Positions 5,954-8,729 of a stretch of DNA of 64,000 bases are shown in pieces. Position numbers and translations under genes: made by a program. The DNA comes from Gemmiger formicilis (GTDB lineage Bacteria > Bacillota > Clostridia > Oscillospirales > Ruminococcaceae), in assembly GCF_900167555.1 (NCBI RefSeq), contig NZ_FUYF01000003.1:1-64000 (forward strand), in the 5' to 3' direction. The notes beneath the pieces were generated by a model, which was not told the DNA's origin, searched no databases, and saw only the letters and a list, made by a program, of their open reading frames with translations. Positions within the stretch are counted from its first letter, which is position 1; each line of letters begins with the position of its first letter.

Positions 5954-7216
5954 ATGCCGCAGAAAAAGCCGTTTATCACCCTTGCCCAGGCGAAGGAGAT
6001 CGCCGCCGATATTCCCACCCCGTTCCACCTCTACGATGAAAAGGGAATCCGCGAGAACGCCCGCAGGGTCAACGCTGCGTTCAGTTGGAACAAGGGCTTT
6101 AAAGAATATTTCGCCGTAAAGGCCACGCCCAACCCCTACCTGCTGAAGATTCTGCAGGAGGAGGGCTGCGGCGTTGACTGCTCCAGCTATACTGAGTTGC
6201 TCATGAGCGAGGCCTGCGGCTTCAAGGGCAGCGACATCATGTTTTCCTCCAACGACACGCCCGCGCAGGACATGAAGAAAGCCTACGACCTCGGCGCGTA
6301 CATCAATCTGGACGACCTGACCCACGTTGCGTTCCTTGAAAAGGTCGCGGGCGTGCCCAAGACCGTCTGCTGCCGCTTCAACCCGGGCGGTGTGTTCGAG
6401 CTGGGCAACGGTATCATGGACAACCCCGGCGACGCCAAGTACGGCATGAGCGAGGATCAGATGGCCGAGGCTTACACCAGGCTGATGGCTGCCGGTGCCG
6501 AGCAGTTCGGCATCCACTCCTTCCTGGCCAGCAACACCGTGACTGACGACTATTACCCGAAGCTGGCCGGTATCCTGTTTGAGCTGGCCGTTCGCCTGCA
6601 CAAGCGCACCGGCGCAAAAATCAAGTTCATCAACCTTTCGGGCGGCGTCGGCATTGCCTACCGCCCCGACCAGCGCAGCAACGACATTGCCGCCATCGGC
6701 GAGGGCGTGCGCAAGAAGTTTGAGGAGATTCTGGTGCCCGCCGGCATGGGTGATGTCGCTATCTTCACCGAGATGGGCCGCTTCATGCTGGCACCCTACG
6801 GCGCACTTGTCACCACTGTGCTGCACCAGAAGCATATTTACAAGGAGTACATCGGCGTTGACGCCTGCGCGGCCAACCTGATGCGCCCTGCCATGTACGG
6901 CTCCTACCATCACATCACGGTGCTGGGCAAGGAGGACACCCCCTGCGACCACAAGTACGACGTCACCGGCGGTCTGTGTGAGAACAATGACAAGTTCGCC
7001 ATTGACCGTATGCTGCCGGAAATCGACATCGGCGACATCGTCTACATCCATGACACCGGCGCACACGGCTTCTCGATGGGCTACAACTACAACGGCAAGC
7101 TGCGCAGTGCCGAGGTCCTGCTGAAGGAGGACGGCTCCCACCAGCTCATCCGCCGCGCCGAGACGCCGGAGGACTACTTTGCAACGTTTGATTTCAGCCC
7201 CTTCTTCAAAAAATAA
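5954..7216 (+). CDS. lysA: Diaminopimelate decarboxylase
   Basis: This 420-residue PLP enzyme of fold type III converts meso-diaminopimelate to lysine and CO2, the last step of lysine synthesis. The PLP lysine is in YFAVKATPNP (about residue 57). The family's conserved glycine-rich stretch NLSGGVGIAY and the GGLCENNDKF segment, corresponding to the C-terminal CES/D motif, are present. The frame is open from 5819, but the ATG at 5954 follows GGGAAAGGAAAG and the inferred transcription start lies near 5920, so the shorter form is chosen. It is followed 18 bases later by a small membrane protein gene that is probably co-transcribed. Confidence 0.88.
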   Translation: MPQKKPFITLAQAKEIAADIPTPFHLYDEKGIRENARRVNAAFSWNKGFKEYFAVKATPNPYLLKILQEEGCGVDCSSYTELLMSEACGFKGSDIMFSSNDTPAQDMKKAYDLGAYINLDDLTHVAFLEKVAGVPKTVCCRFNPGGVFELGNGIMDNPGDAKYGMSEDQMAEAYTRLMAAGAEQFGIHSFLASNTVTDDYYPKLAGILFELAVRLHKRTGAKIKFINLSGGVGIAYRPDQRSNDIAAIGEGVRKKFEEILVPAGMGDVAIFTEMGRFMLAPYGALVTTVLHQKHIYKEYIGVDACAANLMRPAMYGSYHHITVLGKEDTPCDHKYDVTGGLCENNDKFAIDRMLPEIDIGDIVYIHDTGAHGFSMGYNYNGKLRSAEVLLKEDGSHQLIRRAETPEDYFATFDFSPFFKK

Positions 7217-7234: not shown

Positions 7235-7567
7235 TTGTTTGAATTCCTTTTTGTTATCGGCATCGTGCTGGCGTTTTACGGCTACTCCGCAATGAAGAAC
7301 CCCAATGTCTGGGGCGACCAAGGCCGCGACGAGATCAAACCAGAAAACTGGAACGGCTATGTGGTGCACAACGGCCAGTTCATGATGTACGCCGGGTTCT
7401 TTCTGGCTGCGCTGGCCGCACTGGATGTGATTTTTGACTTTGCGGGCTGGCTGTACATCCTGATCCTGCTGGGCGGTCTGGCCATGATCTTCTATCCGCT
7501 CGCCCATTGGATGCACGAAAAAGAGGGTAAATGGTGGCCCTGGCCGAAGCATAAAAAGAAAAAGTGA
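7235..7567 (+). CDS. Small three-helix membrane protein of unknown function
   Basis: A 110-residue protein starting at TTG 7235, after GGGAGGAC. It has hydrophobic helices at about 3-18, 50-69 and 71-90. A polar loop, NPNVWGDQGRDEIKPENWN, lies between the first two. The tail is charged (HKKKK at the end). It is not recognised as a member of a named family. Its position 18 bases after lysA suggests co-transcription, but there is no evidence for a shared function. Confidence 0.72.
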   Translation: MFEFLFVIGIVLAFYGYSAMKNPNVWGDQGRDEIKPENWNGYVVHNGQFMMYAGFFLAALAALDVIFDFAGWLYILILLGGLAMIFYPLAHWMHEKEGKWWPWPKHKKKK

Positions 7568-7574
7568 AACTCTC

Positions 7575-7723
7575 AAAAGCCTTCCCCCTCGGGGGAAGGT
7601 GGCCCCGCAGGGCCGGATGAGGGCAAGGTGTATCTGACTACTCAAAAACGGGTCATTGCCACAAGTTTTGCCCTCATCAGTCAGTGGTCGGAGCCACTGA
7701 CAGCTTCCCCCGTGGGGGAAGGC
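7575..7723. repeat. Composite hairpin repeat of about 150 bp (family B, copy 1)
   Basis: The order is a GCCTTCCCCCTCGGGGGAAGG hairpin split across 7579-7599, GGCCGGATGAGGGCA, a variable centre, GCCCTCATCAGTC, a GTGGTCGGAGCCAC hairpin, and a CTTCCCCCGTGGGGGAAG hairpin. The GATGAGGGCA and TGCCCTCATC-like blocks pair over the centre. The second copy at 62624-62777 has the same architecture in reverse orientation. There is no coding frame with support. Confidence 0.82.
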
Positions 7724-7732
7724 AACGCAAAC

Positions 7733-7773
7733 AAAAATGCCTGTGCAGGCTTCAAACCTGCACAGGCATTTTT
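7733..7773. terminator. Bidirectional terminator
   Basis: AAAAATGCCTGTGCAGG and CCTGCACAGGCATTTTT form a perfect 17-bp stem with A/T runs on both sides. It separates the convergent lysA unit (plus) and the rnhA unit (minus). Confidence 0.92.
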
Positions 7774-7786
7774 GCTGTCGTAAGAT

Positions 7787-8182
7787 TTATTCCGCCGTAT
7801 CCGCCAGCATCTCCGCCACTTCTGCCTTGGTAAACTCGCCCAGCGGCAGCACCAGCTTAGCTAGCACTTCCTGCGGCAGACCTGCCAGCGCGGCACTCTG
7901 GTCTGCCTCGGTGTCCGCGGCGGGCAGCAGATGAGAAAGCCCCTCGCCGTCCACCTCGATGCGGGCATAGTGCCCGGTGGCAATGAACGCGCAGTCCAAC
8001 TCGGCGGCTTTGTCGGCCAGCAGCTGCAAAAGCCCGGCTGGCGTGACTTCGTGCTCAGCCGTGAATGTCTGCACTGCAAAGCCCTGCTGCTGCAAAATGC
8101 GCATGGCTGCTGCGGCGTCACTGCCGCTGTTCAGTCCCAGCAGGACCTTATCCTGCTTTTCAAATGTGTTAAAACCGTCCAT
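7787..8182 (-). CDS. Miniature, degenerate MnmA-like protein
   Basis: A 131-residue protein that reads like a condensed tRNA 2-thiouridylase (MnmA). It keeps LLGLNSGSDAAAAMRILQQQ where MnmA has its SGGVDSS PP-loop, then DCAFIATGHYARI, ADQSAALAGLPQE (MnmA: KDQSYFL) and LVLPLGEFTKAEVAEML (MnmA: FPLG..TK.EVR). The PP-loop is altered, both catalytic cysteines are absent (the protein has one Cys, outside those motifs), and the tRNA-binding C-terminal domains are missing. Thiolation activity is therefore unlikely. It begins after AAGGAGAG, 21 bases downstream of rnhA, so it is intact and translated rather than an obvious pseudogene remnant. Confidence 0.78.
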   Translation of the reverse strand: MDGFNTFEKQDKVLLGLNSGSDAAAAMRILQQQGFAVQTFTAEHEVTPAGLLQLLADKAAELDCAFIATGHYARIEVDGEGLSHLLPAADTEADQSAALAGLPQEVLAKLVLPLGEFTKAEVAEMLADTAE

Positions 8183-8203
8183 GCTTCTCTCCTTATGCCA
8201 AGG

Positions 8204-8665
8204 TCAGGCCTGACGCCCGCCGTATTTCTTGCTTTGCTCCACAGCCATGCGGTCACAGCGTTCGTTTTCGGGATGGCCGGCGTGGCCCTTCAGCCAGTGG
8301 TAGGTGATTTCATGCTTCTCGCTCTCGGCCAGCAGCGGGGCCCACAGATCCGGGTTCAGGGCGGGGGATTTGTCTGCTTTCTTCCAGCCGCGGGCGCGCC
8401 AACCCCTGGCCCAGCCCTTTTGCAGGCTGTCAATGACGTACTTGCTGTCGCTGTACAGATCAATGGCGCAGGGCTCCTTGAGCTGGCGCAGCGCCTCCAG
8501 CAGGGCGGTCATCTCCATGCGGTTGTTGGTCGTGTTGGCCTCGCCGCCGGAAAGCTCCTTCTCGTACACCTTCTGCGCCGTGCGGAACCGCAGGATCGCG
8601 CCCCAGCCGCCCGGGCCGGGGTTGCCGCTGCAGGCACCATCGGTATAAATTTCAATATGCTTCAT
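8204..8665 (-). CDS. rnhA: Ribonuclease HI
   Basis: This 153-residue enzyme cleaves RNA in RNA-DNA hybrids such as R-loops and primers. The four catalytic acids are visible: D9 in [15 protein letters not shown]51 in [10 protein letters not shown]73 in LYSDSKYV and D138 in NERCDRMA, together with H128. The basic-protrusion segment ([13 protein letters not shown]) is present, giving the full-length E. coli-type form. It is first in a two-gene minus-strand unit driven by the promoter at 8701-8729. Confidence 0.96.
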
Positions 8666-8700: not shown

Positions 8701-8729
8701 ATTATAGCAAGCCGGGCTTCATAAGGCAA
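8701..8729 (-). promoter_or_regulatory. Sigma-A promoter for rnhA
   Basis: On the minus strand, TTGCCT (8724-8729), 17 bases, TATAAT (8701-8706). It lies back to back with the rnj promoter, the two -35 boxes being only 5 bases apart. Confidence 0.85.

Follow-up and report, generated by a model that had tools for sequence, protein, structure and literature searches.

The 131-codon gene next to rnhA in Gemmiger formicilis encodes, with a probability of about 0.92, a conserved non-catalytic pseudoenzyme of the MnmA family. It occupies positions 7787 to 8182 of the minus strand of the window, by which we mean the whole 64,000-nucleotide stretch of DNA that was analyzed, and its translation runs over 131 residues free of stop codons. 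The evidence strongly supports a real gene that descends from an ordinary full-length MnmA adjoining rnhA. We refer to that enzyme as type A, to a distant MnmA encoded elsewhere in the genome as type B, and to the short protein as the mini. A displaced enzyme is expected to vanish; here it has been trimmed to the bare fold, probably twice, and yet is kept under selection.

We compared the mini with profiles, structures, and full-length relatives. An earlier note on this DNA had recognized the order of the MnmA landmarks, a lost PP-loop, missing catalytic cysteines, and the absence of about 200 residues, and all of this is borne out. The Pfam tRNA_Me_trans HUP domain PF03054 matches the mini with 68 bits (E 1.2e-18, cut-off 20.6), which places it among homologs of the MnmA catalytic domain, and MnmA chains in the PDB match at E 4.6e-12 to 1.9e-11. 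Four MnmA equivalog models, which describe the whole protein, also match, at 59-66 bits and thus far under their cut-offs (66.2 of 284 bits for NF001138, 59.3 of 236.95 for TIGR00420). By the Pfam cut-off alone the mini would be labeled an MnmA-domain protein, masking that a role as the enzyme is impossible. In the alignment, the mini retains the first strand and helix, ATGHYAR, DQS, and LPLGEFTK. The first-cysteine segment (TPNPC) has been deleted, and the protein ends after the LPLGEF..EM helix, shortly before the second-cysteine segment, with the ICF cysteine gone. The PP-loop reads NSGSDA in the mini versus SGGVDS in the sister full-length proteins; the three known Gemmiger minis have NSGSDA or NSGNDA, and SGGVDS is found in none of 14 minis from Faecalibacterium. 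The central and C-terminal domains that follow the catalytic fold are absent from the gene. As full-length type A measures 348-351 residues in five Gemmiger/Subdoligranulum records (357 in a sixth, more distant record titled Gemmiger), some 217-220 residues are gone.

We next consider catalysis. The residues in question are Asp99, Cys102, and Cys199 in E. coli numbering. Both cysteine segments are deleted in the mini, and the putative counterpart of Asp99 is gone along with the Asp/Cys catalytic segment. Eight of the 17 genomes with a mini were searched with the C-terminal half of type A, and type B was the sole match, which speaks against an enzyme split into two separately encoded halves. 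All three residues are required in E. coli MnmA, according to the available text of PMC11784392. With both cysteine segments absent, and with nothing but type B matching the lost half in those eight genomes, the mini cannot act catalytically as MnmA and should be unable to make 2-thiouridine.

The coordinates of the locus are collected in Table 1. The ribosome site, called good in the earlier note, is indeed close to the start codon, and 21 nt separate the end of rnhA from the start of the mini in the window (21, 22, and 31 nt in the Gemmiger minis). The promoter-like site agrees with the consensus at 10 of 12 positions, and the region holds four such sites against a shuffle mean of 0.6, as judged by a consensus scan alone. 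The same kind of scan found one terminator-like hairpin against a shuffle mean of 1.9, a count that is not significant by itself; the hairpin is taken as terminator-like because of its position and stem length. Since the two elements bracket the pair, rnhA and the mini are likely to share one transcript. No Rfam model for a structured RNA matched at gathering score between positions 7200 and 9000 of the window. A 152-bp repeat with inverted ends lies at 7574-7725, between the hairpin and an ORF at 7235-7567. It has at least 61 matches in the genome at E <= 0.001 (40 of 168 candidates scored) and recurs near full length in at least 28 other places at 72-81% identity, and it resembles a miniature mobile element. 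The repeat is not evident in the sequence downstream of the two sister minis.

Table 1. Features of the rnhA-mini locus, in window coordinates
Feature	Position	Strand	Basis
Mini-MnmA coding sequence, 131 aa, type-A MnmA remnant without catalysis	7787..8182	-	open frame; PF03054 68 bits; dN/dS; model
GFNTFEKQD motif, N-terminal, codons 3-11, common to full-length type A and minis	8150..8176	-	conservation
Degenerate PP-loop NSGSDA, residues 18-23, replacing SGGVDS	8114..8131	-	alignment; S18, S23, S24 lost
Ribosome-binding site AAGGAG, 6 nt 5' of ATG	8189..8194	-	sequence; AAGGAG precedes both sister minis too
rnhA (RNase HI), upstream gene of likely shared transcript	8204..8665	-	PF00075 E 6.2e-42
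Promoter-like site of rnhA-mini, TTGCCT-17-TATAAT, TG before second hexamer	8701..8729	-	consensus scan
Terminator-like hairpin 3' of mini, 20 pairs, T-rich tail	7732..7774	-	consensus scan

We surveyed 35 Gemmiger genomes, one per species and many of them incomplete. Full-length type A is present in 25, one of which (G012) also has a full-length type B. A mini together with type B occurs in three, namely in the genome of the window (G000), in G. formicilis DFI.6.10 (G014), and in MCC627 (G013), and three further genomes (G028-G030) have type B only. MnmA is in fragments on several contigs in G011 and was not found in G010, G017, and G021; these four were counted neither as mini nor as full-length. 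Full-length type A lies beside rnhA at 19 of its 25 loci within a 1.5-kb flank, in the gene order rnj, rnhA, mnmA, lysA where the flank reaches, and rnhA was not seen in the available flank of the other six (L022, L023, L026-L029). The Gemmiger minis all have 131 residues without any indel, the two sisters being 79-83% identical to that of the window. One genome with a full-length type A (G027) carries a reduced type B, an in-frame gene of 160 codons at L171:6567-7049 that aligns to residues 8-138 of the type-B query, PP-loop included, and then to its last 31 residues.

A search of 396 genomes of the family uncovered a short relative in a second genus, Faecalibacterium. Here 14 of 31 genomes have a mini of 170-180 residues, all 14 with a type B and all 14 with rnhA adjoining. 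The other genomes comprise 14 with full-length type A only, two with full-length type A and type B, and one (G436) with a fragment at a contig end that was counted in neither class. Among the named Faecalibacterium loci, rnhA and the mini share 4 nt at their stop and start codons in eight of eight cases; between rnhA and type A the spacing is -1 to +3 nt for 13 genes, and another four have at least 54 nt. Our searches of the 396 family genomes and of 297 genomes of the order report stop-to-stop frames, which can far exceed the protein (321 versus 172 residues in G203). Strikingly short frames among the matches listed are those of G058, G356, and G600, and minis may occur in further genera.

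We asked whether the mini arose once or twice. A tree of minis and MnmA proteins was calculated from 126 shared columns for the window and 35 of the 36 named loci (the two genera comprise 66 genomes), and an rnhA tree for the window and all 36. In the former, there are two groups of minis, each within its own genus (support 100/100 and 100/99), and not one of 200 bootstrap trees unites the minis. The two sets are likewise apart in the rnhA tree, where the branch above those of Gemmiger lacks a star (92/93) and two Faecalibacterium-titled rows with full-length type A (L141, L148) group with Gemmiger. The deletions differ as well, in that the Gemmiger minis are missing some 35 residues following the second strand that those of Faecalibacterium have retained. 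Because both trees split the sets and the deletions differ, it is likely that Gemmiger and Faecalibacterium miniaturized the protein separately. A single origin with transfer between the genera is disfavored by both trees and by the deletion ends, and is not quite rejected by an AU test for a single mini clade (p 0.0545). The mini is unusual among pseudoenzymes in having probably arisen twice, independently, at one and the same locus. The branch to the Gemmiger minis has 0.99 changes per column and the tips have 0 to 0.15; the Gemmiger mini has gone through a burst of change followed by constraint.

All 17 mini genomes have a type B with SGGVDS and SQDICF intact, which makes it look as if thiolation had passed to type B and had not been lost. 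Each of these cells thus combines a mini lacking catalytic residues with a catalytic relative. In the genome of the window, the full-length MnmA that the earlier note had proposed to look for is this type B, on contig C58. We take its neighbor to be an Rrf2/IscR-like gene in Gemmiger and a CCA-adding-enzyme-like gene in Faecalibacterium at the loci looked at. In a type-B tree, which omits the truncated gene of G027, the genes are not grouped by genus, and type B has therefore been gained or lost more than once; those of the 17 mini genomes cluster together (90/86). Three genomes have both full-length genes, G012 (L018, L032), G437 (L110, L066), and G443 (L111, L081), and every mini found shares its genome with a type B, from which we infer that type B was there before type A shrank. 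The mini is not a necessary consequence of type B, because no type-A remnant was found at rnhA in the type-B-only genomes G029 (L119, within 1.5 kb) and G030 (L121). In G030, about 80 nt separate the ends of the matches to rnhA and lysA, and the type-B genes of both genomes form another branch of the type-B tree. As it stems from about two evolutionary events, the co-occurrence of mini and type B is weak statistical evidence for a link.

We determined which positions are conserved in 11 minis and 22 full-length type-A rows. Of the positions conserved in full-length type A, 20 survive in no more than a fifth of the minis, among them three of the PP-loop, and 34 survive in at least 90% of the 11; three positions are fixed in minis only. 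Gly-3, Phe-4, Thr-6, Glu-8, Gln-10, and Asp-11 are invariant in 11 minis and reach 90% or more in a set of 33 sequences, and this GF-T-E-QD motif is absent from the four type-B rows aligned. AlphaFold models calculated with 33 sequences each have a mean pLDDT of 81.5 for the window mini and 81.8 for a Faecalibacterium mini, two of the five window-mini models being far worse (57.8 and 52.7). The model of the window mini fits MnmA 2hma at a Z score of 15.1 (124 residues, 1.7 A), E. coli MnmA at 12.2-13.0, and other PP-loop enzymes at 9.3 and below; the predicted fold is that of a trimmed MnmA catalytic domain. The single HUP-like domains of M. jannaschii 3k32, QueC, and Cap9 (9nto) resemble it in size (about 180-220 residues), but they are weaker structural matches (Z 7.6-8.5), are not among the PDB sequence matches, and have another origin. 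Residues 1-8 of the window model have a pLDDT under 50, and because they are predicted with low confidence and yet include or adjoin the conserved Gly-3, Phe-4, Thr-6, Glu-8, Gln-10, and Asp-11, the model suggests that GF-T-E-QD may be a binding motif in a flexible tail. This motif and the L..LP...L..L.LPLG.F block are candidate contact sites. We considered a motif for binding RNase HI, as the locus might suggest, and rejected it. The motif is also found in type-A genes away from rnhA (L132, L138, L153, L154; 1.7-2.9 kb), and L158, near rnhA, lacks it. As motif and adjacency do not go together, the position beside rnhA gives no support to RNase HI binding.

The best reading of the sequences is that the mini would work by binding something, because its nucleotide-binding motifs decay whereas core and tail are retained. 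There is strong support that a full-length type A beside rnhA lost the catalytic-cysteine segment and its whole central and C-terminal tRNA-binding part, changed rapidly for a time, and then came under purifying selection as a single-domain protein of 131 residues, Faecalibacterium having probably followed the same course independently. Type B, encoded elsewhere, would make the modification, the loss of type A following the presence of type B. The mini itself may act through protein binding, as a non-catalytic companion either to type-B MnmA or to its cysteine desulfurase. Taken as a whole, this account, in which the mini would be a companion of the U34 thiolation pathway in the manner of Ctu2/Ncs2, is the best explanation that we can offer, and we hold it tentatively, at somewhat under even odds. 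The available text of PMC10067955 describes Ctu2 as a PP-loop homolog without cluster cysteines that is required together with its catalytic relative for U34 thiolation, so that Ctu2/Ncs2, the partner of Ctu1/Ncs6, is like the mini a homolog of a catalytic subunit without the catalytic cysteines. Ctu2 belongs to another PP-loop subclass, however, and its association with Ctu1 has been shown whereas the partner of the mini is presumptive, which makes this an analogy and not a shared membership. Compared with MnmA/TrmU, the mini sits at the locus of the full-length enzyme of most sister species and shares its domain and fold, but it has neither the PP-loop, the Asp/Cys catalytic segment, and the second cysteine nor the domains after the catalytic fold. 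Counting against the companion are the E. coli findings that MnmA and IscS suffice in vitro and that holo-MnmA is monomeric (available text of PMC11784392). The type-B-only genomes G029 and G030 and the three genomes with both full-length genes argue against a strict need for it. By the same analogy, two related genera of gut bacteria might independently have turned a displaced MnmA into the dead subunit of a bacterial two-component U34 thiolase comparable with Ctu1/Ctu2, which we consider doubtful.

A serious but still minority possibility is that type A had a second job, unrelated to thiolation, in its catalytic-fold domain or N-terminal motif. Type B would have taken over thiolation, the parts not needed for the second job would have been lost, and the mini would be the minimal module for it. 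The two, probably independent, trimmings spared the same two blocks, and the retention of 34 type-A-conserved positions and the confinement of GF-T-E-QD to type A and the minis fit this idea. The core blocks might, however, be kept merely for the integrity of the fold, and the job would have to be dispensable or otherwise done in G029 and G030. A second MnmA function was not found in the literature searched, mostly at abstract level. Between them, the companion and the second job frame what the mini may mean: either MnmA has an unrecognized second function in its catalytic domain, or bacteria build a two-part thiolase.

It is unlikely that the mini is a decoy or inhibitor, an idea of the earlier note, competing with type B for the sulfur donor or the tRNA and so damping thiolation. 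Such a protein would be expected to keep the MnmA fold without its catalysis and to be found solely alongside type B, as the mini is in the genomes searched, but the domains after the catalytic fold and the sulfur-receiving cysteine are gone. The earlier note had also entertained a repurposed nucleotide-binding fold, and this has lost ground, because the PP-loop is lost or variable and ATGH varies in Faecalibacterium. A protein that binds AMP or ATP would have the HUP-type fold of the mini, and ATGH.AR is indeed kept in the Gemmiger minis and His-71 in at least 90% of the 11 minis. Several different sequences occupy the PP-loop position among the Faecalibacterium minis, however, and six of the 14 have ATAH, ATTH, ATPH, ASGH, or ASGR in place of ATGH, which renders this role improbable.

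We then investigated whether the protein is under selection. Pairwise dN/dS ratios, mainly by the Nei-Gojobori method, are 0.089, 0.110, and 0.138 for the three Gemmiger minis, at dS values of 0.83-1.13 that near 1 are partly saturated. The three pairs differ at 15/8/60, 18/9/56, and 19/9/51 first, second, and third positions of 131 codons, which corresponds to 39-46% of third, 11-15% of first, and 6-7% of second positions. Full-length Gemmiger pairs (n = 10) have ratios of 0.08-0.27. In Faecalibacterium, the median is 0.223 for minis (28 pairs) versus 0.193 for full-length type A (78 pairs). Ten mini pairs with dS 0.17-0.47 have ratios of 0.04-0.16, a near-identical pair with two changes has 0.33, and the ratio climbs to about 0.4 in more distant Faecalibacterium pairs and up to 0.56 between genera. 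Every mini has an open frame, all three from Gemmiger and all 14 from Faecalibacterium, the latter with small in-frame differences in length (170-180 residues). In a neutral simulation with 4000 triples, the number still open was 28 at 0.2 substitutions per site, four at 0.3, and zero at 0.4 and at 0.5, and drift at 0.4 substitutions per site predicts 24% pair identity versus the 79-83% observed. Selection thus acts on the mini protein, as judged from dN/dS, the third-position bias, and the simulation, and there is strong support for purifying selection similar to that on the full-length enzyme.

A decaying fragment on its way to being lost would account for the large deletions, the lost catalytic residues, and the 0.99 changes per column on the branch leading to the three Gemmiger minis. 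It would also be expected to show stops, frameshifts, or indels among relatives and a relaxed dN/dS near 1. Instead, the low ratios in Gemmiger and in the closer Faecalibacterium pairs, the open frames of all 17 minis, and the simulation effectively rule decay out, and none of the signs that the earlier note would have read as decay (absence from all relatives, high dN/dS, frameshifts) was seen. Hardly credible is a frame kept just for a role in cis, such as translation protecting the rnhA transcript, which the 4-nt overlaps in Faecalibacterium and the short gaps in Gemmiger would allow but which would leave the amino acid sequence unkept, while the Gemmiger differences concentrate in third codon positions.

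We found no description of a mini-type protein in the literature searched, mostly at abstract level, where PMC7492273, as far as its available text goes, is the sole paper with both Faecalibacterium prausnitzii and MnmA. The records with minis are those of F. prausnitzii, F. hattorii, F. longum, other Faecalibacterium isolates, and G. formicilis. Many of the full-length type-A genes, by contrast, are from records whose titles name chicken or poultry, and a link of mini versus full-length type A with habitat is possible.
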